This document shows, piece by piece, positions 3,712 through 60,561 of a stretch of 64,000 nt of DNA. Position numbers and translations under genes: made by a program. Position 1 is the first letter of the stretch. Each line of letters starts with the position of its first letter. The notes beneath the pieces are model-generated. The model had not been told where the DNA came from, made no database searches, and saw nothing but the letters and a program-made list of their open reading frames with translations. Source of the stretch: Cliona cf. orientalis (taxonomy: Eukaryota; Porifera; Demospongiae; Clionaida; Clionaidae); assembly GCA_963930775.1 (NCBI GenBank), contig OZ005701.1, positions 2,232,001 through 2,296,000 on the forward strand, given 5' to 3'.

Positions 3712-6311
3712 TTAGCCTAAGATTATAATTATAATCCTCACCACAATGTGAAGGTAGGGATTAATGTATTCAAAGGAAAACTGTCTGAGGAGGAATGCAC
3801 CAGAATTGGGATAGCAATCCAACTCTGTACTCCCGCAGCCAACATTGTAATCTTCCAGAAGTAAGTAAGTCATTGCTGAAAAACCATAGTAGGTGGGATT
3901 AAGATATACCATCCAACGGTACCTGCAAGAGATTGCAAATGATATCACTACTTGTTGGATGATAAATTTCGAGCTATGAAGGTAGCATTTAATTGTGCTG
4001 CAAATGTACATGAAATGATTAATGTATGTAATGATTGTATCCTTGCATGGATACAGTTTTACTGTGGACATAGAAAAATTAATGCTATATGGAAGCTGAG
4101 AAGTGCACATTTTGGATGGATTCTGCACAGTGTACGTATCTCTCCGATGGCTGAGAAATGCACTTGTTTGGACCAATTCCGCATGATAACTCAGAGCAGA
4201 GACCTCTGTTCACATGCTGAGATAAGGTGCGGAGGTCACTTTCTGCATCAGCATGCAGAGTCCCTAATTATATCCGCATGCAGAGATGTGGTATATACCA
4301 AGGTCCATCTCGTGTCCCAGGTTGCGCTATGAATGAACATTAAGGAAGATACAAACGTCCAGTACATGTAAGGGCTACTACAACCATTCAGATAGGGAAG
4401 TGTTCTCATACTAGCACCTGTGCCACCAAGCCTAGTCTCAATTTACTGATAGTCACACTAAGTCTTGATGACGGCACAGACAACTTAGTTTAGTCGACTT
4501 AGAATCACTCTTTGCATGCAAAAGGGATCTCTTATTATTTCCACTTATGCAGAAACAGTCACTGCAATGCAGCATGCGGAAGATTTAGCATGCATGTGAA
4601 AGCACAATCAACAAATGCATTTCTCAATCACCTCTGAAGTTTAATCTCTTGCTACTCATGAACTTTTTCGTTCCCTTCTGAGATCCATGTTCATAAATGA
4701 CATTAATTTTGTGCTAGAAGCATTGTGCTGTAGAGCAGCTCGAGCATGCGCAGTAGATCGAGTAAGATTCCCTATATTAAATAGTAGAGCAACTCAAGGA
4801 TGAGGAATAGACTTCATATCTTATACCATTTCATCCTATTTTATTGACCCTACTTTTTCTTAATGTTGAGATTTGCTGATTTTTATGCTGACAATTAAAA
4901 AACAGACGACAGATGATAGACAAACCAATTGCTTTATCCCCTGCTGCGCATGCACGCATATGGGGTAATTATTAATATACAGGATTAGGATTTGAGTTGG
5001 GTTTTTAAAGATAAACTCAAAGTTTATGTTTGATGAACTTACCCCCAGTGGAGGTTTCCAATCTCAATGAAGCATCCACTAGTAAACTCAGCAATTGAAG
5101 TTATTATTGGAGAAATCTGGAAAGAGTAGTCGGGAAATGCACAGAGAAGAGCAATAAACAGTCCAGTCCAAGCTTGGTTCATGACTATGTGAACAATGAG
5201 CACTTGAAAGAATACCAGAACACTGTAGGAATCAGGAGTGATCACCTGTGGAAACATGATGATAATATTATATACTCAAGGAAGATTTTTGTCACAAATA
5301 TTTTGCAATAAGAATGGCTGGAGCTTATTAACTATACTCTTATTAAATTGTAATGACCCATATAGCTACTTGCAATTGTATGCCAGTCCTCTAAGGGAAG
5401 TTAGTTTAAACAAACACTGGCCAGTCAGTTTATTATAATATATTAACCTATTAGACTGGCCACCCTACCATTAAGTTAATATCTGGCTTTCATACTTGTA
5501 TGCATTATTATTAACCAGTATACCTATGCAATGCCATGTGTGTCACTATAATAGCTATTCTTCACATCAACTGTCAAGTGAATATAATTATTATCGGAAA
5601 GTTGATCATGTGTCAGCTTAATTCAAGCTCATTGTGATATCCTGAACATCTATGAAACAATATGTCTTGCTTGACATATCCTTACCAGGAAGTAGAGAAA
5701 AACAGTAGAGAGAATCACAGGGGTAGTAGCCAAGAACATGTGCCGCATAAATCCCTGCAGAACCAGATCGTATGGTTTTCCAAAGCCATCAGCCTTTTCA
5801 TATGTGTAAATCTGTAACGCCCGTGAATAGTAGAGTTCCAAGGCAGGATACATAAACAGGGCACTGGCAGCAGAGAATTCACAGAATGCAGTAAGGATGA
5901 CACTCGGATCCATTTGTTGAATATAGATGGTCCCTGCATGTATGTTCAAGGGAGAATCAGATTAATAATAATAATATATGTCTTCCTACAAGTTTATTTA
6001 CGTAAGGAGGAGAATAAATCATAGAGTACAGGAGTAGGGATTGAAGTGGGGGCTACCCCTCGAACTTTGATAACTTACATGTACACTGTAAATTAGCACA
6101 CAGTGGTGGATGGAAATTTGCATGCTTGTTTACCATCGAGAGTAAAGTAGCTAGCTATGTACAGCTAGTATAAATAACAATGGTCACAAGGGTTCTCAAG
6201 ATCCATAAAGTGCCCCCCTCAGACACACACACGCATTTACTTAATTGGAAGCTATATATATACTCAGAGAGGAAGAAAATTATGAGAATGAGGAAGGGAG
6301 CAAGACAAAAT

Positions 6312-6344
<33 letters not shown>

Positions 6345-9300
6345 ATGAGCCAAAGGGTGAGTATAAGCATGTGTAGGAGGAGAGAGAGCATGCACACCTA
6401 GTGAAATTCCAAATGCCAAATAGACTACAAGCAGGTAGAGTACTGTCCACACTGTAGCTCGCTTGGCAGCCCTGGCCTCAAGGGTAGCTAATCGAGTAGA
6501 AAACGATGATGACTGTGTCTTAAACCTTTTATAGCGAAAACTGAAGAATTCCAAAGTACTTAATGTACTTCTAGATGTACTTGATCTGGAATAACAAAAC
6601 ATGTCATTCATTATAGAGAGTGTACTGTTGGGTTATGACTGCAGTAGTTAATTTTTTTACGTAGTGTATTCTTTCCATCTAGCCTGCTTTATGGCACGTC
6701 GAACCAGTCTGGGCTCTGATGAAGATTGGTATTCCTTGAGTATTGCCTTGCGGCTAGCAGGATTAAGAAGTAAATCCATCACCACATCTGTCATTTACAC
6801 ATGTGCACATAATGATGATCATTGTAATAATAATAATTATGGTCTAACCAGCAGGATTGTGGTCTTCTATGCTGGGAAGTAGCTTGCCGTTGCTTAGTAG
6901 GACGTTTGTTAGAGCATTGACAAAAAACTCATAGATTTTTTCTGGTGCACCATGGTAGGCTACCTGTAAATATCATAATAAATTGGATTGGATAATTCAT
7001 CAGCATGCAAACAGTTTTATATTATTGTTGTACCTGTCCTTCACAAATGAGTACTAATCTGTGAAACATGTGAAAAACCTCAAGCCTTGGTTGATGAATT
7101 GATAGGACTACTGTTCGATTGGCATCAGCCAGTTTATTTAGAAACATCAGAAATTGCAAAGTGGATGTTCCATCAAGTCCTGCACGTACATGTATGTGTA
7201 CATAATTAACTTATGCGTTGCTATATTATGTATACCAACAAGATATAGGGTGATACATATTATGAGTCACGAACCAGCTGTGGGTTCATCAAGAAAAATG
7301 ATTGCTGGCATTGGTATTATCTGAAGTGCTGTCGAGAGCATACTCCGCACACCACCATCAATCTTCTTATCAGAAGGCTGAGTATCGGCAACTGTACTAA
7401 GTCCAGTCTAGTAAGGTAACCATTAATAAAATTAATATTATGACATTGTGATCTATAGATGGTGTACTATGTAAGAGAATTCCCAAAAATTAACATACCA
7501 AGTGTAGGATTTGCTCCACTCTCTCCATCTTTTGACGGTGAGTATACTCACTCGACATTTTGAGTTGAGCAGCCAAAGTAAGGTTCTCTCTGATTGTAAG
7601 TTCCTTGTAGTATGGCTCACCATACTGTAGAACATAGCCTGAATTGTCTTTAAACCATTGCTGTACTTCTTCAACAAGAATTCCATTGATATAAACTTTG
7701 CCCTAATAAGACATGCAGTTGTCAATGAGAGTATACGTATAACATTGTGCTAGGGTAGTGAGTAGAGTAAGTTATCCGGATATTAAGTAATTTTGTACCA
7801 AAAATAATGCATCCAACTATTATAATAATGCATGGCTGTCGATATGAATCCATATCGACAGCCATAATAGCTGGATGCATTATTTTTGGTACAAAATTAC
7901 TTGCACATACTTTCCTGCATATAATAGCAATGGAAGCCGCGCATGCAGTGATGACACCCTTAATTACCATTCACTCGTGAGGATGCAAATGTCAATGTCT
8001 GAGAGCTATATTTGACTTGGACAAAAGCACCCAATTTCAATCAAAAGTGCGTAACACTTGACATTGTGTGGCTATCATAGTTCAATGTATTATGTATACA
8101 TACATTTTGGGAGCTGAAGTAAGGTATATAGCGTATTTTTTGACAGAAATAATCAGTCTAGCTAGGGGTAGTTTGAGCCAAAAATTGCATTCTTCATTAT
8201 TATTTTCAACCCATTTTCTCATATGTACGCACGTTATTTTACACAAAGTAAAAATTAATGCTCATGAGCATATTCATTAGCAATATTAATTTTGTATAGA
8301 AAGTGCACACACTTTAAACTCTATATATGTTGCTTCTAAAGAACTCAGGGCTTGTCTTACACTTTAAGAATAGATTCCTCTTAATTCAGAAAACATGCAA
8401 TAATAATTTATTAATAATGTATAATAATATTATTATGTGCATAATGTACTGTGTGAACCTGTGGGTGTACCACTAGTACTGTGAGAGCTTTTGTATGTGT
8501 TTGAGCGGACATCTAAACTAGCATGCAAATAATGCATGGATTAAGACAGCTTCTGGCTGAAAGTCGCTGTTCAATAACGTGCAGATATTACTGCATGCCA
8601 TACAGGAAGGGGCATGGTAAATGGTTCAGTCCAAAGGATAACACATCCAAATGTTGTAATTCCCCTATAGAGCGACACATGATGCATGTACTAGTAATCT
8701 AGTGAGCTAAATCTGCTCTTACTCTGTGGGGGGGGGGGGGGGGGGGGGGGGATAGGCAGGGGTGGGCAAGCAAACTGAAATACTGAGCCAAACTATAAAA
8801 GAACGTTCTACTGTAGAGCCACTACTGTAGAGCCAATGCCCATACACAGCACTGATGATCTCACCTCCCCCCCCCCCCCCCCCAAAAAACATACACAAAC
8901 ACTCTTTCACATTAAGCATTCATTTTTGTGGGGCTGGCAAAACTAGTCAGGCCCTGAGCCTTGTGTTAGAAATAGCTAGCTAGCTAATATCCTTATAGAT
9001 TGATCACAGAAATTAATCATGTGTCGCTGATTTGTATACCTGAAGGTAGTGACAAGTTTAGCTTAGAGTAGCTCATAAGTTGTCCAAGAGCTACAAGAAA
9101 TCCTGGTGGAGCCACAATTGGCTCTTTGGCTCCCATTTGCCCACCCCTGGGATAGGAATCAGGACTCAAAGTGATTTATAATTAATATGCAGTTTTGTGT
9201 TCAAAATTGTGCTATCAGATCATGAATGTACCTTGATCACTCCTGTTTGACGTCTACCATTAAGAATATCCAGCAGAACAGTTTTGCCACATCCAGACGC

Positions 9301-12300
9301 TCCCATTATTCCAATTAGTTCCCCGGGATTGAAATAGAGTGAGACTCCTTTTAGCACATCCTTGCGCACTACTTTGAAGATGTCGGGATACTGAATGTAT
9401 GGAAGTAGAGAAGTTAATCATGCATATTATAATTATGTATAATAGCGTAATGGTATTCGGAATCCATGGAGAGTGAAAAAGGTGCTGCATCTTGGTGAAC
9501 AATGGTGCACCATCACTGGGGATAACATATACACTCAGCTTAATCCATACATATCGACTCAAGAGAATTTATTAACCCTCTGCACATGAGCAGCAGGGTT
9601 ACAGTAGTCTGTTTATGTGTCTGTCTGTCTGTTACCACTTTTAACTGCTCAAGTGCTATATATACTATCCAAACTCCATAACATCAGAATCAGCATGATA
9701 CTCCAAAGGTTTTGACTAGTGGATTTGCTCAGTAAAAGCACTTCATCAAAAGTTATTAAGCTGTTTTACATATAATTGCATAGTGCTCTTGGCATAAGAA
9801 CTAAGCTACATCTCTCACGACAGCAGATTGCACAAGGGTTTCAAACCACAGAGCCATGTGTGTTAAACTATTGATCTACTGTACATACAGTAACTGCAAT
9901 GGCAGCTGTGTTCAAGTAACTTACACTGCATAGACTTGTGAATCATGCACAACTGTCTTATTATTTGTATCACTGGACTCCTACAGATCGAACACAATCA
10001 TCTATTAGCTGGTATATTGAACACTGCTCTTGATTGAGTACAAGTAACACTGCATGCATCTCCTGGGTCGTGCAATATACTGTCAATTGAGTGCAAGCAA
10101 CACTGGACTCCTGAGTCAACTGCTATCAATTGAATGTAAGTCACACTGGACTCCTTTATACAATGCTACTATCAATTTAGTATATTATGCATAACACTGG
10201 ATTTGTGAATTGAATATAACCGTCGATTGAATGCAACCAACATTGGTCCCAGGACTCATGGATCCGAATATCCAAGTTTTGGCAATGCACTCAGTCAATA
10301 GCATTGTAGATAATTTGACATTAAATTTATTTGACACTGGACTCTTGTATCTATATAATGTTATCGACTGCTTGAGTTCAAGTATTAAACCCTAGATATT
10401 CTTGATTGAACAAAAATAATAGTCTGGTGCCTTGAATGTTACTGATGATGAGTCAACCTGGAGACATCACCTGAGCACTCTGACCATTCATTATGAGTAA
10501 AAGTATTTTTGTGAACTCCCAGATTGGATTATGTAGTACAGCTTGGTTCCAGGTGAGTTGTAAAATTTTAGTATTGCCTTACTGAATACTGTACTCTCTT
10601 TTATAGATCACGTCACTCAACATCTTATCCCTACTTGATAACATAATTTTCTTAAAATTATGTAACTGGTGCCATATCTATTCCATATGCATGCATGCCT
10701 TTCAAATTTAATTGCTACTGTACAGGTATTGGTTGTAATAATCTGCAATAAGCAAATGGCGCAGAGGGTTTTGCCAAAGGTGCTTCATATTATAATAATA
10801 TTATGGGTCTGACACATATCCAACTGTAACACGCAACGATTGTACATACCAGTTTTATTTTAGATTTTGAACTCCCATCAACTTCTTCCGTATCCTGAGT
10901 TTCATGCAAATAATCTGATAGGTTTTCCAGAGCAAATGTTTGTCCTCTGTCATCTTGTTCATTCGTCACCTCTTTTGTCCTTGCATTGTAGGTCACGCTA
11001 TAACTGAGGTCCAGACATGAAACTGAAAGTGCATCCACATCTGGCACATTCTGTATGTTGCATGTGGATTGTATAAACTAAGTGGTATCCAAGCTGATGG
11101 ATATAATGATTTATGTACCTTCAAAGGATTTTCATCATCATTTACGTCTTGCATCAAACGGATATAAGTTGCTTGCTTCAACTCCAAACGGTACGTCCAG
11201 CACATAATCCAGATTTTGACTAAAACACATATAACTGTTATCACTACAATGACACATGCGATCACTATTTTTGACCAGATTGGCCAGTTGTTGCTACTCT
11301 GTCTCCCAATGGTAAGCCTATCGGGGCAGTTTGGATTGCAGCTGGGACCTTCACAGAATCTGTCACTGTACTGAACACTAGTGGACATGTTCATCCATTC
11401 CTGCAGAGCCTCTAGGATTGTCGCGGGTGTCCCACCTTCTTGTAAAGAGGCTAGATGGAGAGTAGTCCACTTCTCTGATGTGACTGCATTGCTTAATATA
11501 TTGTTGTGGATACAAAAAAAGATGTGCATAATGTAAGATAACTGTCTAAAAATTAATTATAGCACTACATGTGTAATGACATTGTGCAATTAATCCTTGG
11601 CACAATAGACTAAGTATTGTAAGCACAATAAGTAAACCTCTCTTGGGATGAATAAGCGTATTATAATTATGTTCATTCACTGCAAAGGAGAGAGTGGCAA
11701 CAGTGACATACCGGGTAATATATACACAAAGTTCAGCTACGAGCTCAGTTGTCACAAACAAGAGTAAGGTTAATCTATCGAGCTAGACCCTTCCTTGCGC
11801 TTGTATTGTACGCGCGGGGTAGACTAGAGTAAGGTGTGAATATCATTACCTACAATGTTGCACCAGTGTTGTATTCATATACGTATAACATGCATGCATG
11901 CACTGGCCTCTGCCTGTTGAAGTTAAGGCTATTACTTATGTAATGCAAAATCGTGCATATTATAGCTGTAATACACTTTCTATTAGTGGGCAGTATGATA
12001 TAAATTATTATGTTAGAGGACAAGAAGGATAATGCGTGGATTGAAAAGGCCAAAAAGCTTTAAGATGAACAAAACATCCAGAACTGGTGTGTGTGTGTGA
12101 GTTGAAAGATTTTGCATAAAGCTATAATATTATAGTCATGATCAGTATATACATCCATTAAGTGCCAAAACTCCCCATGCACTATATTGCATGTGCTAAA
12201 GGATAATAATTACAAAAGCCAAGATTAATGTGAGACCAGATGTCACATGTTAAACTCTGTACTGAGTATTATGAGAAGATCTATTGATATAAAATGAGTA

Positions 12301-15074
12301 CTTTACGTATGATGTCAGAGTGGAGTGCGATGCTTCCCCAATCCCAAATTCTGTGGATATCCAGTGGCCCATGAATATGTGTAGAAAATGGTTTCTCTAT
12401 AAAGTCACACGTAAAGTGAAACAATCCAAAAGAGGCTCAAAATAGAACCCCCACCAAAAAAATATTCAGGAGATTGTCTACAGCCATATTCCAATCGTTT
12501 TACTATTATTTACATGTACCTGAGAATATCAAGTTCAATAATGTTTTCTGTCATTTGATTATTGAACACGCGATCAGGATCATCCCACAGAGTGGAAGTA
12601 GCGAAATAGATGTGCTGAAAACACTCAGTTAGGTAGTAGCTTAAAGATGGTAGCTGTGAAACAAAACAATACAATACTGGAATACCAAGACAAAGACTTA
12701 GTAATAGGAAGTCAGTTTTAACATGGGACTTTGGGCTTCAGCACTAGTGACAAAATACTAGGTGCAACTGAACATTAAATTTTTATGTGTATTATCTAAA
12801 GCACTTATAATAACTGCATGTATGCACTATATCTGCAGCTCACAGAGTTAGCTGGTATACAAAACACATGGTAACATCTAGGAGCTGATTAGTTGTTTAT
12901 AGACTAGCTACTAGCTATATAAGTCTAGCAGCCTGAGCTGCATGACATTATACCGTATAGCGGGAAATTTTCAAGGGAGAAAATCTTCACAAATTTCGCT
13001 ATTTTACAGCCACCCACGAAAGTTTTCTCCATGCACGAAAGTTTAGGCATGCCACACCCATTATGCGATCAGTTTAACATTCCGTGAAAGTTTTCTCCCT
13101 CAAAAGTTTCCCGCTAGCCTATACGGTATTATTATGTAGCAGTTGTGATAACACACCTTGCCACAGTATAGCTATACTACTATAGATGTACATTGTACTT
13201 ACGATATAGATGGTTTACTGAAGTTACTACTCTGTAATAATAATATATAATATAGCTAATGTGTGATGGCTTCCCAGCAAGTTAAATCATGAAGTGGCAT
13301 GAGACCTACTTATAGTAAATGACATGTATACCTGTTTTGAGGACAGTGACAGTGTTGTGGCAAGTTGTACTCCAAATTCATGAACTGTTGTCAGTAGTCG
13401 ATTTATGTCATCAACTGATGCCAAGTGTGCAGTAGCTGCAGGAGCCAAAGAGAATGTGTCAAATGTACTTGAAATTACAAAGGTCTTGATGCTCTCAGAA
13501 AAGTAAGCAAGCTGTCCACTGCTGTTTCTACAGGTCATGACACAATGAGCTGAAAAGCAACAAGGGTAGCCAAGCGTGATGTCCCTGCAGGCCTCGTGTT
13601 TCTCATAGATTTGTAAGAGCTGATTAGTGTCATTTTGCACTTGTTTGAGACTTAATGTTCCGAAAAAATTTTGAAGAATGCTCCCTTGGAAGTTTACAAA
13701 CCATGAAGAATCAATAATCAAAGATATGTCTGTTGAGTTTCCGAGTTGTTGTTGGATCCACTTGGCATGATTGAGAGCTCCCAATCCACCTACACCAGAA
13801 CCAACGATAACGAGGTGTCCATCATCAGTGAGATTATAGGAGTCCATTAACTGAGTGATGATGGTCTGACCAATAATTTTTCCTCGGAATGTGAACTGGA
13901 GCGTTTCATTTGACGGATCAAAGGGAAAACAACTCTCAAAATCAAAGCAGTCACATTCACTTCCATGTACATCTTCTCCAAGCCAAGCATCACTACTGCA
14001 GTAGGGAATAATGACATGGTTGTAGTCATGAAACAGAGGATTCTTGCTGGCATTGCGATCTAGAATATCTCTTCCCCTGACTACAAAGCTAGTGCTAGCA
14101 GAAGCAGAAAAGTTCTTATCTTCCTCAATGAAACAGTTTAGTGAGGTCATGAGAGGACTGACCACTTGTGATAATGGACGTCGTTTCCTATTTCGAATTG
14201 TAGTTTCCCACGCCTCTTGTAGATTGAAAGAGTTGAAATAAGGAGGTGAGCTCGAGCTTGAAAATTCCCTTTGAACCTTGAATAATGTTAATAATTATTA
14301 TTGATGTTACTTCTATGAACATACTCAGGCATACATACATCAGAGGAGGTAGGACAGGATGAAAAGATTCTGCACCTGAAATCTAAACGCTGTTTTGACA
14401 TAGCTGAATGAATTCAGCATTGTAGGGAACCTTGCATGTTTTGTTCACCCTCGATTGGAATATTAATATTGATAACTTTGACATTGTCTTACTCCTCTGG
14501 GCATAGGCTTATAGACTTAGTCTGCATAATAATAATATTATACGTAAATCAGCCACCATGCAATAATCATTAATTTTGATCAGCTTCAATTATCAGCTAG
14601 CTGCCTAGTCTATTGGAAAATTAATGTAAGCTTTCCCACTGCTTGTAATCTGTAGATGAGGTTAGTTGTAACATGCATTTCTCATATACTATGTATGAAG
14701 TCAGAACATTTTAGTATTACAAGGAAAAGGATAACGAAGCAGCACAGGTAAATAACCTACGATGGACAAAATGATCTTATATTTTGTAGTATAAGTATTG
14801 CTAATACCTCAACTGAAAAGAAACGTCTGTTGCAGGTATCACGTGAATAGCAAACTCCACCACTCTCAAAGAATATGATCCAATCACGGGAGTTTTGGTT
14901 TCGGCTTATAAAGAAGCCAGCTCTTGTGTAATCATTACACAAAGCTCTTGAGTCAGCTGCTTGCTGCCATCTCAGGTCTGGCTCCTGACTATCAACAAGT
15001 AAAGGTTCTGACAGCAGGAAAACTAGACAGGTAAGCAGAATTACGCACTTCCAGTGATGTGCTACAAAATTCAT
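3712..15074 (-). CDS. Notum/pectin-acetylesterase-like domain fused to an ABCG half transporter
   Basis: Fifteen exons on the minus strand: 14808-15074, 13332-14276, 12520-12653, 11119-11491, 10850-11050, 9232-9390, 7499-7702, 7275-7407, 7034-7179, 6849-6963, 6661-6787, 6398-6585, 5686-5933, 5043-5245, 3712-3922. Their 3654 nt close in frame at every junction (1217 residues plus stop), with GT-AG borders. Residues 1-~30 are a signal peptide; the start chosen is the ATG just before it. Residues ~35-480 match the Notum/PAE alpha/beta-hydrolase fold (FESGGVCYSRDTCNRR, IPYCSSDAW, DSSWFVN). A span lies at ~523-546. Then an ABCG nucleotide-binding domain has Walker A GASGCGKT (~670), Walker B IIFLDEPT (~797) and H-loop SIHQPR, followed by an ABC2 membrane domain. 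The nucleophile motif reads GSGVGG, with Gly ~250 where the family has Ser. The Asp (~362) and His (~418) appear kept. The signature loop reads IDGGV instead of V/LSGG. By homology it is a membrane transporter half, probably dimerising; its substrate is unknown. Confidence 0.85.
7788..7904. repeat. Near-perfect palindromic foldback in an ABCG-gene intron
   Basis: Outer arms of about 35 bases, starting AAGTAATTTTGTACCAAAAA, plus inner arms (GGCTGTCGATATG against its complement) form a hairpin nearly without a loop. It lies in the intron between exons 7499-7702 and 9232-9390. The near-identity of the arms suggests a recent foldback or MITE insertion. No coding content. Confidence 0.85.
8757..9149. 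mobile_element. hAT-type nonautonomous element
   Basis: The termini CAGGGGTGGGCAA and TTTGCCCACCCCTG are the classic hAT inverted repeat. Flanks read GGATAGG on both sides, a 7-8 bp target duplication. The ~393-bp interior holds poly-C and no transposase. It sits in an intron of the PAE-ABCG gene. A related right-end fragment (AGCCACAAGAAATCCTGGTG onward) is present at about 37151-37213. Confidence 0.85.
9960..10400. repeat. Degenerate minisatellite in an intron
   Basis: The phrase ACACTGGACTCCT recurs with drift at about 9970, 10107, 10148, 10193 and 10330. Between copies lie shared words such as TCAATTGA(G/A)TG and CAAGCAACAC. The spacing is irregular (roughly 45-60 bp, with gaps), so this looks like an old tandem array within the intron between exons 9232-9390 and 10850-11050. 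Confidence 0.55.
12951..13128. repeat. MITE family A, copy 2
   Basis: Left end TACCGTATAGCGGGAAATTT and right end CCCGCTAGCCTATACGGTA, the latter with a small insertion. The interior AAGTTTTCTCC blocks match copies 1 and 3. It lies in the intron between exons 12520-12653 and 13332-14276 of the PAE-ABCG gene. Confidence 0.85.
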
Positions 15075-20914: not shown

Positions 20915-21066
20915 ACTGAGAGCTTACCTATATTGACAGGGGTTGTATGTAAGTAGCACACTTCACAACACTGATCACTGATTAGTGGGTACACATTGAT
21001 AGTAGCTACCTGTTGACAGGGGTTTTGTAGTCATGCATATGTATATAAGCAGCACACTTCACAACT
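20886..21066. repeat. Direct duplication upstream of the MULE transposase
   Basis: The blocks 20889-20967 and 20980-21066 share ATTAG(C/T)GGGTACACA, then TTGACAGGGGTT, then AGCACACTTCACAAC in the same order. This is an ~90-bp tandem duplication with small indels, ending 15 bases before the transposase ATG. It may be the element's terminal or promoter region. Confidence 0.7.
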
Positions 21067-21080
21067 TGCTTACAACCACG

Positions 21081-22436
21081 ATGGAGTTCATCACCAACCA
21101 GAAGGGTAACAAGTCACTGCTATGGAATGGTAGCAGATTCACTGTCAACCGCAAGATGGACAATGGAACTATCTACTGGAGATGTTGCAAGAGAAGCTGC
21201 ACAGCAAGAGTCACCACACAAGGTTCCGAGCCAAATGAACGGGCATAATCATCCGGTAGATCCCACTGAGACGAGAGTGGAGGAAATCAAGGGCAACCTG
21301 AGAAAGAGAGCGAGAGAAGAACTCACTCCAGTTCCTCGCATCTATAATGAAGCCCTTACTGAACTCTCAATTCAAGAAGATCGTGACGGTGTGGCTGCAC
21401 AGCTACCTATGTTCAGCTCACTCAAGTCATCTCTCTACCGCAGCAGAAGAAAGCGATTTCCACCACTCCCTAAGACCAGAGAGGAGATAGAGATTGATGA
21501 TGAATTCACCTATTCTCTTAATGGTGACCGGCTCCTTCGTCGTATTGAAGGTGCTGGCGATAAGATCATGCTCTTTACCACTGACGACAACCTGCGTCAC
21601 CTGAGCACACTCGATACCATCTATGTTGATGGCACATTTCAGGTATGCCCTTCCCTATTTACACAGTTATTCACCATTAATGGTTTTCTGCATGGGCAGC
21701 AGTTTCCATTGGTGTATGCTCTTTTGCCATCTAAGTCACGCAATGACTACAACAGATTCTTCACTCTACTAAGAGAGGAGATGCAGACTTTAGGTCTGCG
21801 GCTTGAGCCTGAGCATGTGATGGCTGATTTCAAGATTAGCTTAGTGCAATCTATAGAGCTTCAGTGTCCTCAAGCATCAATCAAGGGCTGCTACTTCCAT
21901 TTTTCTCAGTGTTTATGGAAAAGGTCCAAGCACTAGGGCTAGCAATTGCCTACAAGAATGACCCTAATATTAGGGATTTCATTCAGAAAAGCGCAGCTCT
22001 AGCATTCATTCCACTTGCGTTCGTAAGAGTTGCTTGGAGTGGAGCTAAAGCTGGCGCTCCTCAACAGCAGGAGATTGGTGACTACATCAGCTATTTTGAG
22101 TCCACCTGGCTTGATGGAAACTTTCCACCCCGGACATGGAACTATTATGCATTTGATGGACCACGCACAAACAACCACCTCGAGGGTTGGCATAACTGGA
22201 TCAAGCTGATCTCCATCAGAGCTCATCCCCATCTTTGGGAATTCATTGAGCTAGTACAGAAGGAGCAGGCTTCCACTGAGGTTGCCATTGAGCAAGTTGC
22301 TGCTGGCAGAAGGAGAAGAGCAAAGAGAAGGAAGGTGGTACAGCATGAGGAGCAAATCAATTGGGGGGTGTGGTGCAAGAGATCTCACATATTCGGTACT
22401 ATACCTCTCATTTTTTTCTCTCACTCTCTCTCATGA
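21081..22436 (+). pseudogene. FLYWCH-MULE transposase, two frameshifts
   Basis: The first frame (ATG at 21081) encodes a FLYWCH-type zinc finger: SLLWNGSRFTVNRK, IYWRCCKRSCTARV, then NGHNHP after a frame change near 21230-21237. The second frame (to 21936) carries the MULE transposase core, with the first catalytic Asp in IYVDGTFQVCP, then TINGF and HVMADF. Reading continues in another frame after a shift near 21915 in a GGAAAAGG run, through RTNNHLEGWHNW to a basic RRRRAKRRK tail. Two shifts in ~1.35 kb make it inactive unless they are assembly errors. Autonomous DNA transposon relic; its terminal repeats were not found. Confidence 0.8.
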
Positions 22437-23660: not shown

Positions 23661-23667
23661 GCTAGTA

Positions 23668-26600
23668 ATGGAAGATGTTCAGAAATTTGGAACCAGCGTT
23701 AAAAAGAAGTACCAAGAAAGACGAATTAACTTTGAGAAACAGTGGCCCCATTGTACTTCGGACAAACTGGCTAGATTAGAAATAGTAAAGAGAGAGAAAG
23801 TAGGGGGCTACTCCGCTAAAACATGGAGGGGTAGAGACTGCGACGGTGTCAAGCGAACTCCAATTGCTTATGGTGACCTCTTTAAGGAGGAGAGTGGGAA
23901 GAGGCCAGTTAGGAAGGTTCTTGTAGAAGGTGATGCTGGCATAGGCAAGACCACTCTCTGTATAGCAGTCTCTGAGGACTGGGCAAATGGGAAGCTCTTC
24001 CAACAGTTTGAGTTGGTTCTCCTCTTACCACTTCGGACGAGGGTAGTGGCCTCAGCAGGCTCTCTTGCTGAACTGCTCAAGGTACTACACTCTAGTCCAA
24101 GGTTCTGTGACTCGGTAACTTAGGTATATAGAAGAAGAGCAAGGAGAGGTACTAATCATTGCCGATGCATGGATGGGATGAACTCAATGAATCTAATAGA
24201 CAAGAAGGCTCTTTCTTATATCAGCTATTCTTTGAACAGTTTCCCTTTGTATCTGTTGTACTGATTTCCAGACCTTCTGCCTCTACTTCACTTCACCAAC
24301 TTCCATGCATTGATCTATTTGTTGAGATTCGTGGTTTCAGTAAAGAGCATATTGTAGAATGCATCCAGTCAGAGTTTGCCAGTGACCAGGCAAAGGCTCG
24401 TCGTCTCTTAGAGCATCTAGAGTACAATGTACTAATTGAGAGCATCTGTAGTATTCCCCTCAACTGTGCCATAGTTTATCACTTATGGCGGAATCCTGAG
24501 GAAGTTCTTCTTCCCTCCACTATGACAGAGCTCTACAGAACGATCATTCTCCAGTTAATTTTACGGAACATACGTAAAATTGATGCTTACAGTTCTGTTT
24601 TGAGTCTGCATACATTTGATGCACTTCCTGCGGACTTGCAACAATCATGGTGGCTTCTGTGTGACTTTGCTTTCCAGGCATTCAAAAGGGATCAACTTGT
24701 CTTCTCTCTACAAGAGCTAGAGGCATTCTTCCCCGAGGGCTTAGCTTCAGACAAAAGGATCTTGTGCTTTGGTCTGCTACAGTCTACTGAATCAATTGGT
24801 TTTGGCATATCTTTCCACTTTCTCCATCTGACCTTCCAGGAGTACCTTGCTGCCCTGCACCTAGCTAGATGGTCACCAGACAAGCAACTTAACTTCTTTC
24901 AGTCATACAGGTCGGGTAGTCGATTTTCTCAAACCGTTTTATTATGGTGAGTAAGTTCTTTTTTGGGCTATGTTTCTGATGTAAATGCGGACATTATCCA
25001 ACAAATGTTCGTATGTATAGCAGGCGAAGTGTTCCCAGACACCTTATCGCTTTATCACTTTGGCTTTGAAGGTCAAAGTAACCTAGTGATTTGTGATCAA
25101 TTGACTCAATATCTAGTCACCCACTCTTCACATCTCAGTAGGATTGAGATTAACTTTGGTCATCCCCGCACTGCTCATGACTGTACTGCTATAATTTTTG
25201 CCTTATCAAACATACATATACAGGAGAGTATTACTATGGAGATTCGTTTTAGAAATTGTGGTCTTAGAGAAAATCAAATTAAACATTTTGTGAACGTACT
25301 AGCTGATGCTGAAGGAAAGTTACAGATCACTGATTTGAATTTGAGTGGGAATAGGCTGACAATCTCAGGCTTGCACGCATTTGAAGGTGCAGTAGGTGGT
25401 GACCTTTTGGCAAAGTTGCAACATCTTGACCTCTCTGGATCTCTTACGAGTGATGCTGATGCTAATGCTGCATGGTTGACTACATTTACAGAAGCTCTTT
25501 CAGCGCATAGTCCTCACCTAGAGAGTCTTGATCTGTCTAACAACAATCTTGGTGTACCTGGAGCATCTGCTTTATCAAGAATTTTTTTCACTGATCGATT
25601 CGGGTACCTGTGATGAATCAAATGCTCACACATGCAAATTAACGCACATAGACTTGAATAAGACCAATATTGGTGACAAAGGTTTGGGTATTTTGATCAA
25701 GAATCTTAATGTTTTGTCTTCCTTGTCTTTGATAGGGAATGATATTCATTCTTTTGGAGTTTCATGCTTGGCTGATGCTGTTTGTTCAGGAAAGCTTAGA
25801 CTTCAGCAGCTAGTTGAATGCTTTTCATCTCAGTGATAACCCACTAGGACTTGAAGGTTCTATAGCTATCAGTAGAGTAGTCACTGGCAATCACTCTCGT
25901 GGGTTTGTTTATCCAGATGTGACCTAACAACAACTGGTATTAGTCTTTCAGGCACAGAGTCTCTGAATACTACATCTAGTAGTGTGGCTGAGAGAGATGT
26001 AGGACAACAACTTTATATAGCTAAAATGCCTCAAAAGCAGCACCATTTCTGTCCTTGAAATGAATGGAAATAGCTTTACTGACTGCATGGAGATGGTATT
26101 CACATTTTAGCTGGCTTCATTCACTTGTGTCCATGTGTAAAACATCTCCATACCAATGACTGTAGCATCACTTCTGATGATCTCATATGGCTTCTTGACA
26201 GACTTGGTCAGCTCAAATGTTCATCTTCTAAGCTTTGTAGTAAGCTGCAAGTATGGTACCTTGTGAATAACTATCTTGAGGATAGAAGTGTATCTACTTT
26301 GATAGATCACCTACCATCACTATATATTTCCTCATTTGGCATGTGGTACTTCCCTTGATGATAATCCAATCAGCAGTGAGATGAAGAAGAGGCTGGAGGA
26401 GGAATTAAGAAGACGTCGAGAGGTAGGTTGCTCTTCTATATTATCTTATGCAATTTGCTAACAATACAATAATTATTGAGACCTGAAAGCTAAGCAGATG
26501 CAATGTAGTAATTATGATCCTGAATAGTAATAGTATAGAGTATGGGCCTGAACATCAAATTTGAAAGGTTATTGTTATGTTTGAATCTATGATTGTTTGC

Positions 26601-27316
26601 TTAATAATTATTGTTTACAAACTATTCCAGTAATCTCATAATAGTATAATATTCCACATGTGGTGATTGATGATTGTCATGCGACTTATCACAATCAGAT
26701 TATATTATTCCTTGCTCAGTTGCAGATTGATGATGCTGAGAATATGCCTAATTCTACACTTCCTTCCTTCTCTTCTACATCACTTCCCCTTAGTGATGTT
26801 GCAATACAATGTGGTGATCAACCAGAGAGCCTACAACTCAAAAACTGTAAGTACTAAAAATATAATGTGGCTATCCGTGTTTTACACTATAAACTTTTCA
26901 TTTGATATAGAAAGTTGCAATGATACTGTAGTGGATTCATTTGAGCTCCTATCTCTGCCCTCAAACCGATATAAAGAAGGTATAATATTATATGGACACA
27001 AATTCTTATTAATTGTACATACTAGTTTTACACCTATATTAACTCTCTTAGATTTCACCAGCCTTCCTGATGTTGAGCACCACTTTATTGATCTGATAAA
27101 GTGGGAGGATGAGAATGGAGTTAAAAGAGAACTCAGGGTCTACTCCAAGATAGCTCACAAGTGGAGACAAATTGCCTCTCGGCTGGGCTTTGAACTAGGA
27201 GAGATCGAATCTGTCAAAGAGAACTATCATAGAAATGATTCCCGCATCACTACAGTAACTGTGTTAAGACGGTGGTTTGAGAATGCTAGGAGCCTACCCA
27301 ATGCTGGGAGGTACCC
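23668..27316 (+). pseudogene. NLR relic: NACHT - leucine-rich repeats - Death domain
   Basis: The order is a short N-terminal helix-rich part, a NACHT P-loop (VLVEGDAGIGKTTLC, about 23917-23961), Walker B-like ADAW/WDELNE, NACHT helical region, LRRs of the ribonuclease-inhibitor type (LQHLDLSGS, LESLDLSNNNLG, LTHIDLNKTNIG) and a C-terminal Death domain (27050-27316; IAHKWRQIASRLGF, LRRWFENA). Visible lesions: an extra base near 24119; four extra bases (GCAT) in the Walker B region near 24163; in-frame TGA at 24948-24950; frame change in a poly-T run near 25586; further changes near 25815 and 25921. The Death domain stops after NAGRYP at a foldback. Family members act as cytosolic pattern sensors; this copy is most likely dead. 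Linker exons lie at about 26724-26847 and 26908-26978. Confidence 0.85.
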
Positions 27317-27376
27317 CAAGGGGGCGGGCATTTAAACCACGAGGCGAAGCCGAGTGGTTTAAATGCATGCCTCAAG
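27314..27376. repeat. Foldback sequence ending the NLR Death domain
   Basis: GGGCGGGCATTTAAACCAC and GTGGTTTAAATGCATGCC form a hairpin around GAGGCGAAGCC. Homology to the Death domain stops exactly where this starts, so an insertion or rearrangement breakpoint is likely. Confidence 0.6.
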
Positions 27377-31900: not shown

Positions 31901-34900
31901 TATAATACTCGGGGGGGGGGGGGGGTGTGGCGGTGAACACTTGATAGCCACACCCCTAGGACTGGTCGTCATGTGTACTGGAATGGCGACGGTACGGAGA
32001 CTGAACGGTACGGACATCAGCGTTATGGACGGCGGTGACGTGACGACGGTAGGAGGAGAGGATACTGGAGTGATACGTGATAGCCACTGGCGTGACGCGT
32101 GACCTCCAGGGCCACCGTAAATTTAGGCATCCTTGAGTCCTGCACAAGTTTTTCAGTTCTAATTATTAATTCTAAGGCACCATGGAAGTTTCCGGACATC
32201 AATTATTTTTAGGTGGCACCTATTTACTATTGGAACACATCCATTGCCATGTGAGATACCGTATAGCGGGAAATTTTCGAGGGAGAAAACTTTCACGAAT
32301 TTTGCGATTTTTCAGCCATCCGCGAAAGTTTTCTCCACGAAATTCTAGGCATGCCACACTCATTATGCGACCAATTTTAACGTTCCGCGAAAGTTTTCTC
32401 CGCGAAATGCTCCTTTCCTACCGATCCGCGAAAGTTTTCTCCCTCGAAAATTTCCCGCTATACGGTATATATCGCAATACTGTGGTATAATTGATCGATC
32501 TATCAAGCTAGCTGTTTACATATCAATCTAAACCGTCTTTTATTATGGGCACTTATCAAGCTACTGCTAAGGCCTTCAATGCCTTTCTTGAGTTAGAGAC
32601 AACTGTTCTGATGGCTACAATACCAAACAAATCGAGCATTAATTTTTGTTCAGCGATCTAGTCTGGGTGCCACCCTTAATTTACAAGAGAGGAAGGGGCT
32701 GACACCCAGATGATATCTGGCAGTGATCAGAGTGAAATTTCTAGAATAACTAAGACTATTTTTTGCCACTAACATATTCACTGTCATTAAAATTAATAGT
32801 ATTGGTTAGTGATAGCGCTGGGCTCCGGTAAAACGTCCTGAATCATAACTGTTCTAATTCAGCTCATAGGCTTCTCCCTAATTTGAACACCCTTTTTACC
32901 TGCTTGCGAATCTTTCGGTTTAATTATTGGATGTGCCTTCACGATCTGTAATTATTTCTTAGCAGCACCTATAATTATTGGAAAATTTATGGTACATACA
33001 TACCAGATCAGCAGATGCAAAGAAATTGAAAGCATGCAAGCTAGAAGCCTAGTTGATACCGACAGCTAGCTAATATTATAATTATGATGGAAGCTGAGAG
33101 CCCCTTAGAATCCTCTCGGCTTCCATAGGTTGACCACTGATGAGTTAGACCTGCACACAATACCATGTTTGTGCAAATAAAATGCAAGATCTAATAGGAT
33201 AAGATATTTCGCGTTTTAGAACTTGGCTTAACGGAGCATGTGACGACCTTTACAAGAAAATCGTGCGAAAGTTAAAATTGTAATAGCTTGTGTTCCATAA
33301 TAAACTAGTGGCATTAATTTCGTTCTATGGCATATTATTCCCTTTTCCCTCACCATTAAATTTTTACGACATTATCAGGTTTGGTCACCTAGAGGTGGTG
33401 AAGTATCTCATAGAGGTAGGAAAATGTTTTGCTGGATGCACTGACAGCAAAGGGAGAACTCCACTTCACCTTGCTTGCCTGTAAGTCCATGGTTGCATAG
33501 TAATCCATATAATAATAGCCACTAATTTGAAGTAACTGTTGTGTATAGATTATCGGAGATCTAGAGAGTGCATGACACTGTACATCGTTACTATTGGGAC
33601 TCAGACTGTATTCTCTCTTGTAGATGGATTGTAGTGGTAGATACACTGTCATAGTGATTATTGTGTCACATTATTGCAAGATGGAGCATCATTAATTTTG
33701 ACTCTACACAGAAATGCATAGTATTAGAAATTTAGACATATGGGAACTTGTTATTTATTTTATGTTGACCTGAGGGTACCGTTACGATAGTTCACCATAA
33801 CAATAATTATTTCTAACAGCTTCAGGTTGTAGAAGATAATTCATGAGAAAAATTTGTTATTACACTTTTCTAGCAATTTATGGACTGACAAAGAAAGGAT
33901 GGCTGCAATTATTGCTTGCCTTCTTGAACAAGGCCACTGTGATCCTAACTGTGCCACGCACCATGGATTAACGCCTCTAGACTTAACAACCAAGACTGAA
34001 CATTTCCATCTCCTCCTCAAGTTTGGAGCAACACTGAATGAGAGCAACTTGATCAAATATTTCCCTCAACACTTTTTAAATCAGCCCACTGATATGTGTA
34101 TCAAAATGTTCATACTCGGTAATCCAGGGGTGGGAAAGAGCACACTTGTTAAATCTCTCCAGATTGAGGGTACAGTATTCTCTCGTATCAAGCATCGGTT
34201 CACCAAGGTCACAAATGTGGACGAAAAGACAGCTGGTATCATTCCTTTTGATATTCAATGTAAAGCTTTAGGACGTGTAACCTTATTTGATTTTGCTGGT
34301 CATAGGGAATTCTATGCCGGTCATGATGCCCTCCTCCAGAATTCAATGACAGCCTCTCCATCAATCGTTACCTTGGTCATTGATATGAGAAGTGAAGAAG
34401 GGCATATCAGAGAAACACTTCAATACTGGTTTGAGTTCATTAACTATCACAGTGTTGAAGGAAGGTTGAAATCGCATCTTATAATCCTTGGCAGCCATAC
34501 TGATTGCCTACCTTCCAGTGAGGTGAAGCAAAAAACGCAATTCATACGACTCATCACCAACCATCACAGTCTTGATAATATCTCAATTGCCGGGCATATT
34601 TTGCTAGATTGCCGATATCCTGAGTCGTCATCTATGTCTCAGCTGCGCTCTGTTCTCTCACAAAGTTGTAAAGCATTGAGAAGCTCTGAAACAAGAGTCA
34701 TTGCACATCGTGCCTTCCTGGCATTCTTGTTTGATAAATATCCAAACCAATCGGCTGTTAAGTTTAGCATAGCAGCAGCTGAAATGAATCATAAAATTGA
34801 ATCCAAGGAGTATGCCTACATGTACCTTTACACCTTGAAGACTTCTAACCTTTTTGAAGTTTGCGAGACTTTGAACAATCAAGGTGAAATTCTTTTCATG

Positions 34901-36151
34901 AAGAACGATGACAATCCAGATAACAGCTGGATAGTGTTCGACAAAGCAACTCTTCTCTCTCAAGTCAATGGAATCATCTTTGCTCCTGAGGGATTCAAAG
35001 TGCATCAGGATATCTCGACCAGCACAGGTGTGGTACTAATGTCCAAGATTGTTTCACTTTTTCCCAACCTGGACTGTGACATGATATGCCAATTGCTATG
35101 CCATCTAGAGTTCTGTCATGAAATAATAGATCCTGATATTCTTGCGCTATTACAGTGTCATGTGAAAATGGACACCTCTCCTTCTGATGAGAAATTTCTT
35201 TTCTTTCCTGGGCTCGTAGACATAAATATCTCACCAGATGTGTGGCAGTCAAACAGTCAGTTTGGCTACCACAGTGGATGGCTTCTACAAAGCATCAAGC
35301 GTGAACAGTTTTTCAGTCCACGCTTTCTTCAAGTACTTCTCCTTCGACTAGCATACAGTTTAGCATTCACCCAACATGGTAAAAATTCATCTGATTCCAA
35401 CCTGGAACTTAAAAGAAGTTGCTATGTATGGAAATGTGGCATCTGCTGGTCTGATCTGTCTGGAATAGAAACTGTAGTTGAGATTGTCAATCAGAAAAGT
35501 ATCGTTGCTCTGACAAGATCACTGAAACACATAGAATCCCACACAAGATTAACTTACATACGTTCACAGGTTATCAAGAAAGTATTGGACACAAAGAAAG
35601 GGTTATGCCCAAAGGTTGTGGTTAAAGAATCATTCCTACATTCTGAAGCTGCCATCAGCTATCCTTTAGATCTTACTAATGTGAAGATTATCAACATAAG
35701 TGAAGTAGCACATGCTGTGGTAGAAGCCAAGCTTGGGGTACTAGACAGTGAAAATCAAATGGTCGATGTAAAAACCGGGCTACTCTGCTCTGAGCCTTAC
35801 TTTGGATTTGGACAAGCAATTCTTGATGAACTATTCAAAGAAGATGATGATCATGTGACTATTGAAGATGGATTCCTTTATGATATTGCAAAACGAATAG
35901 TACTACACGAAAACACTGACTACATTGTTAAACTATTCAATTCTTGTCCAATTCGCCTTGCTAGTCTCCTAGATCGTGCTCCTCCCGGTGATGTTCACAA
36001 AGTGGTGCGAGTGTTTCAGCTGTGGCGGGAGGAGATGGGAGCAGAGGCAACACGATACAACCTTTGCAAACGGCTGAGTCAATTTAGTATCTTTGTGGGA
36101 AGAAATCCACTTAGTCTGTACGGCATGCATAAATCTAACCCTCATTCCTAG
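28903..36151 (+). CDS. Ankyrin-Roc-COR (ROCO) protein
   Basis: Exons 28903-29057, 30514-30621, 33379-33480 and 33874-36151 total 2643 nt, exactly 880 codons plus stop, with GT-AG borders. Residues 1-~180 are ankyrin repeats (TPVHTACRFGHLEVVKYL, TPLHLACL). The middle exons are single-repeat exons of the same phase and near-identical ends, so they arose by exon duplication. The Roc GTPase domain has P-loop GNPGVGKST (~204), a DxxG-like FDFAGH and a degenerate specificity motif (GSHTDCL). A COR-like region follows. The C-terminus (DVHKVVRVFQLWREEMG) resembles the start of a Death-like helical domain and may be cut short. No kinase domain. ROCO proteins are GTP-dependent signalling scaffolds; the exact role here is unknown. 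The start is the first ATG giving an ankyrin frame. Confidence 0.85.
29060..30510. other. ROCO intron 1
   Basis: AT-rich intron of about 1.46 kb. Repeated words GAGGTAATTATG(A) occur at about 29249, 29650 and 29706. No embedded gene or element ends seen. Confidence 0.5.
30881..31029. repeat. Short MITE, TACCGTAATGTCCCGGGCAAGC termini
   Basis: The left end TACCGTAATGTCCCGGGCAA and the complement of the right end (TACCGTGGTGCCCGGGTAAG) pair over ~24 bp, giving a 149-bp element in ROCO intron 2. Words such as GGGTAAGCACCCATG also occur around 1155-1275, probably a decayed relative. Confidence 0.7.
31124..32127. mobile_element. Long-arm foldback element in ROCO intron 2
   Basis: Two arms of about 220-260 bp (31124-31386 and 31907-32127) are inverted copies with few mismatches. 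They start CCTAATTTATACGGTGGCCC and are markedly GC-rich against the AT-rich host. The left arm has an extra ~36-bp internal duplication (CGTAACGCTGATGTCCGTAC occurs twice). The ~520-bp centre has an inner inverted repeat (GATACCTCAGTGTGTT at about 31461 against 31772). No transposase; ORFs in the arms are by-products. Confidence 0.8.
32257..32467. repeat. MITE family A, copy 3
   Basis: Best-preserved copy: TACCGTATAGCGGGAAATTT at the left, AATTTCCCGCTATACGGTA at the right, with GCGAAAGTTTTCTCC blocks between, in ROCO intron 2. The remainder of the intron (32470-33370) shows nothing else recognisable. Confidence 0.9.
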
Positions 36152-43452: not shown

Positions 43453-43514
43453 GCAGAAACAATCATCAGATATACATCATTGAAGAAAATAGATAAGCAA
43501 TAAAGTTCAAAGCA

Positions 43515-44771
43515 ATGACCATTCCAGCATTCATCCTCTTCTCAACATTCCTATCCCTCATGAGCAACTCAGAGGCAAAATTGTACTCTGGAAATGTAGC
43601 AAGAGAGAGGACAGCCAGGTCGATTCAAGTGATCGGACTCGAACCTGCTCAGAAACAAGAATTCATTCAGGTTTTAGATACTGTTGCGTACTATGTGGAT
43701 TTTGCCATTAAAGCCATTGAACAAGATAAAACACTTTTCACGACCTGGTTTCGTAGTGGAAATGAACCCGATGCAAGGGATACATTGGAGAGTATACAGG
43801 GAATAGTCAAGACTAAAGCCTACACCCGTGATACTAGCGTCAACTGCATGAATACAGGAAATTATATTAAAATAGGATACATTCCTCATAACTCTAATAC
43901 CATCTATTTGTGTCCTGCCTTCTTTGAGACAAAGTCACTTGTGGGTACTAATTCCAAAGTGCATTACCTTGTCCATGAACTAGCCCATTATGTGATACCA
44001 AACCAAGGAGAAGACTTTTACGGTGAAGATGAAGCTAAATTGCTCGCACGCACCCCTAGAGGAGCTTTACAAAGTCCTGAAAATTTTGGTCTTTTTGTTG
44101 GCAATGTCAATCCATTTGACTATAAGTGGGATAGTCAAATTCAATTTGTAGAAAATTTTTTAGTGTACGTCACTAGTGGTCCAGTTTATATACGTTTGGG
44201 AGAAAATCAGGGAAAAAATAGAGCCATTGATCCCGGATATCCCAAACTGCTCTCCAACTTAAAGCAAGAATGGGGAATTGACCTCCCCACTTCGTTTCTT
44301 CAAGGATTCGATGCCATGGTCACCTATCCTTACATGTATATATTTCGAGGAGGTCAATACTTGTCATTCGACAGAAATACCAAACGTACTGATGGACCAT
44401 ACCCTCTAACTGACGGACACTTTACTTCACTTCCTGCTAATTTTCAACAGGGCATCGATGCTGCATATCACTTTCAAGGAGTATACTTATTCAAAGGCGA
44501 TCAAGTGATTAAATATGACTTCGTTCAACCTGGTCAAACAGACACAATATCGGTAACAGAGGGCTATCCGAAAAAGATTGAGCATTTAAGTGATGATGAA
44601 CGATGGGGTAAGCTTCCGGTAAGTTTCGAGAAAGGAATCGATTCTTCTGCATACGATATTAAGGGCATGAACTCTGAGCTCTGTTTGACCAAAGGCGATG
44701 AGATATTATGTTATGAAGTATATGAATATAGAGCTGGTTATCCTGTTAAGATCAAGGATAAATACAGTTAA
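43515..44771 (+). CDS. Secreted M35-like (aspzincin) metalloprotease with hemopexin tail
   Basis: Single-exon ORF of 418 residues. Residues 1-21 form a signal peptide (MTIPAFILFSTFLSLMSNSEA). Residues ~45-215 carry the zinc motif HELAHYV (154-160). A GEDFYGEDEAKLLA segment follows, with Asp167 nine residues after the second His. This is the HExxH + D + YG pattern of M35 lysine-specific/deuterolysin proteases, in which the Asp is the third zinc ligand. From ~240 on there are three hemopexin-type units (FLQGFDAMVTYP, FQQGIDAAYHFQGVYLFKG, FEKGIDSSAYD), a propeller used in other proteases for substrate or matrix binding. So it is probably an extracellular protease; the substrate is unknown. Copy 2 starts with an ATG four to six codons upstream (AAGTTCAAAGCA), which here has mutated to ATA, so translation must begin at the present ATG. 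Confidence 0.85.
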   Translation: MTIPAFILFSTFLSLMSNSEAKLYSGNVARERTARSIQVIGLEPAQKQEFIQVLDTVAYYVDFAIKAIEQDKTLFTTWFRSGNEPDARDTLESIQGIVKTKAYTRDTSVNCMNTGNYIKIGYIPHNSNTIYLCPAFFETKSLVGTNSKVHYLVHELAHYVIPNQGEDFYGEDEAKLLARTPRGALQSPENFGLFVGNVNPFDYKWDSQIQFVENFLVYVTSGPVYIRLGENQGKNRAIDPGYPKLLSNLKQEWGIDLPTSFLQGFDAMVTYPYMYIFRGGQYLSFDRNTKRTDGPYPLTDGHFTSLPANFQQGIDAAYHFQGVYLFKGDQVIKYDFVQPGQTDTISVTEGYPKKIEHLSDDERWGKLPVSFEKGIDSSAYDIKGMNSELCLTKGDEILCYEVYEYRAGYPVKIKDKYS

Positions 44772-52910: not shown

Positions 52911-53332
52911 AATTTAACAAATAGCTAACTCTCCTAGTTTTGTGTATGTTTATAGTATAGGCTGAACTCAAACCGTAGAAACCGTAGAACAATAGAACTA
53001 TAGAAGTGCAAACAAAACTTTTGGATATAGCTAGTAGCAACATGGTATTATGAGTGTATATTATGTGGCATTACTATTATTGTTTTGATTGGTCACTGTG
53101 GTTTGATACAGCAAGTTGCAATGTATGCAAGCTGCATGTCATTAGAGTGAGCCCCACAATATTCTTGTGACTTGCAAGTTACCACATGTTCATGGACAGG
53201 CAATGTGCATGTGAACACAAGCAATTCAGACTAACACTCTCTTCTAAATAGTATTATCATAAACACTGCGATAATATTATGTTTCTATAGGGCAAACGAC
53301 ATCTGGCTTATATATAATTTGTTTCACAAACA

Positions 53333-60223: not shown

Positions 60224-60561
60224 GTTTAATTATTTGACACAAGTACAAATCATGAATTTGAGGTACACGCATTATTACAGTTAATTTTGACTCCTCTGCA
60301 TTCTGACTAACTAATGTTTTAGAACTTTAAAGAGCTCATTAAGTTGTTTACAATTTGGAATCCAATTACAGACTGCACTTGCAAATGCATTCCGAGACCA
60401 CCATGCACCTTATGTATGCAGCCGGGGTAACCCAAACTGGGTTAAAATAACTTTTCAATTTTTACAGTGCGCGCGTATGTAACGTACCAACAAGTAACTT
60501 TGCTACACTTACTGAGGAGTTGAATTGCATGAATACAGATTACTATAATACAAGTCTTAGA

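Follow-up and report, generated by a model that had tools for sequence, protein, structure and literature searches.

The window analyzed here, a 64-kb stretch of Cliona cf. orientalis DNA (C13:2232001-2296000), contains on its minus strand a gene whose 15 exons, rebuilt from the DNA between positions 15074 and 3712, form a single open frame of 3,654 nt (3 x 1,218), corresponding to 1,217 amino acids and a stop codon. All 14 introns have GT/AG splice sites and the exon phases match; the exon coordinates, total length and phases given in a preliminary description of this DNA were all reproduced (14/14 GT/AG). The frame of exon 4 depends on the acceptor at 11491/11492; at the next AG, 8 bases further, the frame is broken. 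No second copy of the fusion was found within the 64-kb window. The features of the gene are as follows.

14985..15074, minus strand: ATG with a hydrophobic stretch resembling a signal peptide, aa 1-30 (frame; hydropathy peak at aa 10-28)
14808..15074, minus strand: exon 1, start of the ectodomain (frame; own-genome paralogues show a similar first exon break)
13332..14276, minus strand: exon 2, core of the PAE/Notum-like domain (frame; Pfam PAE; Notum structures as relatives)
13794..13796, minus strand: codon 250, Gly in place of the nucleophile Ser (PAE alignment)
13458..13460, minus strand: codon 362, conserved triad Asp, kept (150/150 rows of the PAE alignment)
12520..12653, minus strand: exon 3, with the kept triad His418 at 12614-12612 (frame; PAE alignment)
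11119..11491, minus strand: exon 4, end of the ectodomain (CNPNCP) and single membrane span (frame; alignment; hydropathy)
10850..11050, minus strand: exon 5, cytosolic linker, in which the stretch SVSCLDLSYSV aligns with relatives (frame; alignment)
9232..9390, minus strand: exon 6, Walker A GASGCGKT at 9303-9280 (frame; motif)
7499..7702, minus strand: exon 7, Q-loop region, Q719 (frame; motif)
7275..7407, minus strand: exon 8, degenerate signature IDGGV at 7362-7348 and Walker B IIFLDEP at 7302-7282 (frame; motif)
7034..7179, minus strand: exon 9, H-loop His834 at 7096-7094 (frame; motif)
6398..6963, minus strand: exons 10-12 (6849-6963, 6661-6787, 6398-6585), connector and first TMD helix (frame; hydropathy)
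5043..5933, minus strand: exons 13-14 (5686-5933, 5043-5245), transmembrane domain (frame; Pfam)
3712..3922, minus strand: exon 15 as drawn; the true end is probably at 3742 (frame; paralogue splice donors)

Pfam recognizes three domains in the protein: PAE at aa 137-437 (E 8.2e-30; 104.5 bits compared with a curated cut-off of 26.6), ABC_tran at aa 653-805 (E 6.2e-20) and ABC2_membrane at aa 982-1169 (E 1.4e-8). Among solved structures, the only relatives of the ectodomain at E <= 0.001 are Notum, while the chains closest to the ABC half are ABCG proteins (ABCG2, E 1.6e-45), and the nucleotide-binding domain (NBD) lies N-terminal to one transmembrane domain (TMD) as in ABCG half-transporters. 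Based on hydropathy, the protein has a hydrophobic N-terminus, one strong span between the esterase and ABC parts (aa 515-551, with a strong stretch at 524-542; about 11295-11185 in exon 4) and spans in the C-terminal third; eight sequons lie N-terminal to the single span. This predicted topology fits an ectodomain outside and an NBD inside the cell. Judged by its sequence, the locus encodes one chain consisting of a signal peptide, a Notum/PAE-fold ectodomain, one span and an ABCG half-transporter (NBD, TMD), and the frame and the three Pfam domains bear out the earlier proposal that a Notum/PAE ectodomain and an ABCG half-transporter are joined on one chain.

The 3' end of the gene is probably not as drawn. 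In three paralogues, NPY[LI]H[LI] is followed by one further codon and then by GTGAGT, GTGAGT or GTCAGT; in the window gene, NPYLHI is followed by one codon and GTGAGG at 3741-3736 in phase 0. Because the paralogues carry a splice donor at the matching point, the last exon drawn (3922-3712) probably reads through a donor, and the end VVRIIIIILG would be read-through. In the C11 copies and the C4 copy at 9.13 Mb, a hydrophobic stretch follows the donor in another frame. The last TMD helix (TM6) of the drawn model is short and broken by an Arg, its end being doubtful, and an AATAAA lies at 3700-3695, after the drawn stop. No further exon was recognized downstream of exon 15; a control locus was equally without result, and this observation therefore carries little weight. 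While the drawn model stops at 1217 aa with a doubtful last exon, the relatives P0002-P0004 have a long C-terminal tail, and 21 of 25 full-length PAE-ABCG relatives are longer than the model (1383-1992 aa). These 25 rows were chosen by hand from the matches, leaving out P0167 and P0168 (no NBD motifs), P0170 and P0005 (both truncated) and one-half relatives.

When proteins were searched with the ABC half of P0001, PAE (PF03283) shared a chain with ABC_tran (PF00005) or ABC2_membrane (PF01061) in at least 28 of the 120 top-ranked matches out of 5,160. Relatives were drawn from the best 120 of these 5,160 and from the best 120 of 209 matches, and the distribution given here is a lower bound. P0001 from Geodia barretti aligns to 94% of the window chain with 40% identity. 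PAE and ABC parts are present on one chain in the demosponges Geodia and Ephydatia, the glass sponge Oopsacas, the homoscleromorphs Oscarella and Corticium, the ctenophore Bolinopsis and the charophyte Chara braunii, as well as in the corals Oculina and Porites, the hydrozoan Clytia and one sequence with the label 'scpid', presumably the calcareous sponge Sycon. In the five relatives scanned with Pfam, Chara included, PAE always precedes ABC_tran (5/5), and ABC2_membrane is present in 4/5, being absent from the shorter Bolinopsis chain. The order PAE, span, linker, NBD and TMD is common to the window protein, P0001, Oopsacas minuta P0150 and Ephydatia muelleri P0147. Several chains of 1,572-1,580 aa from contig sources group with Oopsacas and are probably uninterrupted ORFs. 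The label of P0156 (comp27452_c0_seq1) resembles names given to ORFs from transcript assemblies; P0156 would then be RNA-level evidence for the fusion in a relative, not in the window gene. Chara and animals may both have PAE-ABCG because the fusion is old, because it was transferred or because it arose twice. Among contigs of other origin, one viral and nine prokaryotic contigs match the PAE profile; none of them has a collinear ABC match, one (L006) having a short match on the opposite strand.

A uniquely new architecture is rejected by these database relatives, which are carried under generic names such as 'ABC transporter G family member 8' for P0001. The earlier statement that no protein with this architecture has been described must thus be divided: the architecture has been seen before in databases, but a description of it was not found in the literature searched. 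A search of the open-licence literature, limited to the best matches, returned no paper on the PAE-ABCG architecture, which is weak evidence of absence.

The Cliona cf. orientalis genome (216.8 Mb, 149 contigs) was searched for further copies, and loci were collected from PAE matches, from P0001 matches (39 of 163 candidates scored) and by tblastn with P0146 on fetched stretches. Pieces matching PAE, span, NBD and TMD recur, ordered as in the window gene and on a common strand, at seven other loci: C4 at 6.36, 9.13, 9.60 and 9.88 Mb, C11 at 5.75 and 6.65 Mb and C14 at 1.05 Mb. We infer that each of these is one gene; in the C4 copy at 9.88 Mb, the three other pieces follow the PAE piece at a distance of about 11-23 kb. 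The region C4:9801500-9906060 contains three nearly identical PAE modules in about 81 kb (L023-L026, L029, L039), which look like a recent tandem duplication. For the modules at C4 9.80 and 9.86 Mb, no ABC match was present in the roughly 16 and 7 kb fetched downstream, stretches too short to exclude one. The C14 locus (1042000-1051990; L034) represents a second, diverged class of PAE-ABCG paralogues, with which P0009-P0011 group at 100/100. The locus at C11:6644700-6654690 (L032) has GKTTLDF after Walker A compared with GKTTLLDF in its near-twin at 5.75 Mb, i.e., one residue fewer. In addition, the genome has free PAE genes at C14:705188-710446 (L011, L035; in tandem) and C18:1391616-1394027; in the stretches fetched, these had no ABC match to P0146 and no match to the nucleophile pattern, and they were excluded from the PAE-ABCG counts.

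These observations bear on whether two adjacent genes, for a secreted esterase and a half-transporter, were falsely joined in one model. The DNA alone is compatible with a separate promoter, and in vertebrates Notum and ABCG are separate proteins, as this explanation would have it. However, both parts lie on one chain in relatives, including P0156 with its transcript-like label, the region separating the halves (span plus linker) can be aligned among relatives, and the seven own-genome loci are collinear on the same strand. We consider two falsely joined genes highly improbable. Similarly, a chance joint of two genes is rejected based on the P0001 alignment, the database chains and the seven collinear loci.

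The Notum triad is Ser-His-Asp, and the Ser of GCSxG in plant PAE is named as the probable nucleophile (PMC5465549); the nucleophile column was assigned because of the alignment with Notum and this source. In an alignment of 150 rows (149 of 260 fetched proteins and the window protein), this column has Ser in 145 rows, Gly in four (window, P0082, P0170 and Chara P0257) and one gap, while the triad Asp is kept in 150/150 rows; the His is present in 148, the other two rows having Arg (Chara) and a gap. The window protein reads GSGVGG at this position: Ser250 is replaced by Gly, Asp362 and His418 are retained, and the Ser-Asp-His triad is incomplete. In contrast, the nine further PAE modules of this type that were examined in the genome all have GSS[AS]GG (9/9). 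Thus, an active Notum-type enzyme is not supported for the window copy, which lacks the nucleophile Ser. The other PAE proteins without this Ser read GSGVGG (P0082), GSGTGG (P0170, which retains LSGGQ) and GGGLGS (P0257), and on a 45-row tree the four Gly states require at least four changes. A Ser loss shared by the window protein and P0082, which have the same GSGVGG, was rejected, since forcing the two together costs the tree 26.7 log units (AU p 0.005); this test was named after the motif had been seen and involves a long branch.

The NBD of the window protein retains K676, T677, Q719, D801, E802 and H834 (Walker A, Q-loop, Walker B and H-loop). Its signature, however, reads IDGGV and is not of the LSGGQ/VSGGE type, with Asp at S778 (Ser in 25/25 relatives) and Val at Q781 (Gln in 24/25); in contrast, the seven own-genome copies with ABC pieces have [LI]SGGQ (7/7). 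The changes are concentrated in the signature stretch (six of eight conserved columns compared with 16/71 in the remaining NBD; Fisher p 0.005, in a test picked after the change had been noticed). Outside the signature, conserved residues are lost in 16/71 NBD and 9/43 TMD columns, and P671A and T678V adjoin the catalytic residues of Walker A. Because of this share of changed columns, the retention of the six other ATP-site residues is not striking alone. Whereas 24 of the 25 full-length PAE-ABCG relatives have the nucleophile Ser (Chara has Gly) and all 25 have the signature Ser, the window protein has neither, and none of the relatives fetched has the same double change.

We compared columns that are at least 92% conserved in animal members. 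The window protein has changes in 7/52 such columns of PAE, 0/3 of span and linker, 22/79 of NBD and 9/43 of TMD, compared with medians of 0, 0, 1.3 and 2.6%, respectively, in the other animal members. Given the maxima of these members (PAE 6/51 in Bolinopsis, NBD 12/64 in Porites, TMD 5/23 in Bolinopsis), the window protein is clearly outlying only in the NBD. Over the whole chain, it is changed in 37/183 conserved columns, the top value among animal members, the others ranging from 0 to 12% and Chara reaching 37%. Based on a short search, trees of both halves place the window protein among the demosponge members of the PAE-ABCG family; the 45-row PAE tree does not settle its position among these, and in a tree of exon 2 that includes the paralogues, six own-genome copies form its sister group (96/90), its end branch being 0.89. 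All three tree analyses mark it as a long branch, and its placement is unsure.

A competing explanation is recent decay, in which a once normal PAE-ABCG transporter lost constraint lately and gathered changes before its first stop codon. In neutral simulations (40 runs per value), the mean numbers of stops were 3.3, 6.3, 11.7 and 37.7 at 0.05, 0.1, 0.2 and 0.9 changes per site, and at 0.2 amino-acid changes per site there were never fewer than 6; stop-free runs occurred only at 0.05 and 0.1. The window gene has no stop on an own branch of 0.89-1.4, arguing that its frame was maintained over most of the time it has evolved on its own. We conclude that the gene was no pseudogene for most of this time, while decay in the last part is conceivable. 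The high share of changed conserved columns, the loss of both nucleophile and signature and the last exon that is not recognized all fit recent decay. On the other hand, the 15 exons are without stop, frameshift or broken splice site; of the values simulated, only those at or below 0.1 changes per site, far under the branch length of the gene, gave stop-free runs; and no cysteine that is invariant across 16 sponge PAE sequences has been lost. We regard recent decay as the main competing explanation, though a less likely one.

Rather, we suggest, with a probability of about 0.5, that the window gene is a diverged demosponge PAE-ABCG paralogue that lacks the esterase nucleophile, has a degenerate signature and most likely works together with an intact own-genome paralogue in a heterodimer of which it is the altered half. 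By its topology, the protein would carry the esterase fold outside the cell, where the pump opens. Judging from their parts, the probable function of intact PAE-ABCG members is to export a compound that is lipid-like or acylated and to deacylate, on the outside, this compound or a ligand that they bind. Candidate partners are the seven own-genome copies with nucleophile Ser and [LI]SGGQ. In such a heterodimer, Walker A and B of the window protein would lie opposite the signature of the partner and form one working ATP site, IDGGV would make the second site non-catalytic, and the ectodomain would bind without cleaving. A comparable asymmetry is described for ABCG5/G8, in which ABCG5 has the signature ISTGE, ABCG8 has an altered Walker A and one ATP site is inactive, and for Pdr5, in which NBD2 has the signature LNVEQ (PMC7756502 and PMC8421411, respectively).

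If the window protein instead paired with itself, IDGGV would close both ATP sites. It might then be a lone binding or sensing protein that has lost pumping and changes shape by ATP binding alone; that both sites would meet IDGGV, and that the protein retains its Walker A/B residues as well as a cysteine-rich ectodomain, is compatible with such a homodimer. However, the two ABCG-type precedents for a degenerate site considered here differ, ABCG5/G8 being a heterodimer and Pdr5 a full-size protein (PMC7756502, PMC8421411), and we consider a homodimer unlikely. The altered heterodimer half suggested above would provide a clean test of asymmetric ABCG pairing beyond vertebrates and yeasts.

Notum is a free secreted enzyme with the nucleophile Ser; the window ectodomain resembles it in fold relation and in the triad Asp and His but is tethered to a transporter and lacks the Ser. 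ABCG2, ABCG1 and ABCG5/G8 lack an N-terminal ectodomain and span. As in the window protein, their NBD precedes the TMD, and the window signature is altered, as is that of ABCG5 (PMC7756502). For an N-terminal ectodomain and a span before the NBD, fungal Adp1 is a precedent: its topology is given as TMH1-NBD-TMH6 (PMC6647914), and its ectodomain has EGF repeats (PMC6647914, PMC9426558) and not an esterase fold. The window chain is thus a variant of the already known kind of ABCG protein with an ectodomain.

More broadly, we speculate that PAE-ABCG proteins form an ancient, undescribed class of export-coupled ectoenzymes, i.e., ABCG half-transporters that act on the exported molecule through an extracellular Notum-fold domain of their own, expanded in sponges and with repeated loss of the nucleophile (four separate losses), and that in this sponge one subunit without key residues of both catalytic centers became a regulatory heterodimer half; as a whole, this proposal is tentative. 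If the family works as it looks, one protein would combine the export of a lipid or acylated ligand with its deacylation outside. Notum controls the acylated signal Wnt, and a membrane-bound relative with its own pump, occurring in early-branching animals and a charophyte alga, would therefore bear on the origin of such control.

The window contains further features, all on the plus strand. At its end, in 60451-64000, a frame matching a Chlam_PMP-type repeat precedes one that has no Pfam match. Two look-alike regions lie at 43497-44768 and 51776-52914, the first of which matches hemopexin and contains an M35-type metallopeptidase domain. A MULE transposase domain is present in the frame 21049-21933, with a further overlapping frame extending to 22433 (21049-22433), and 33833-36148 is a 772-aa open frame with a Roc GTPase domain. 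Finally, an NLR-like gene lies at 23662-27332, where adjacent frames encode NACHT, leucine-rich repeats and a Death domain.
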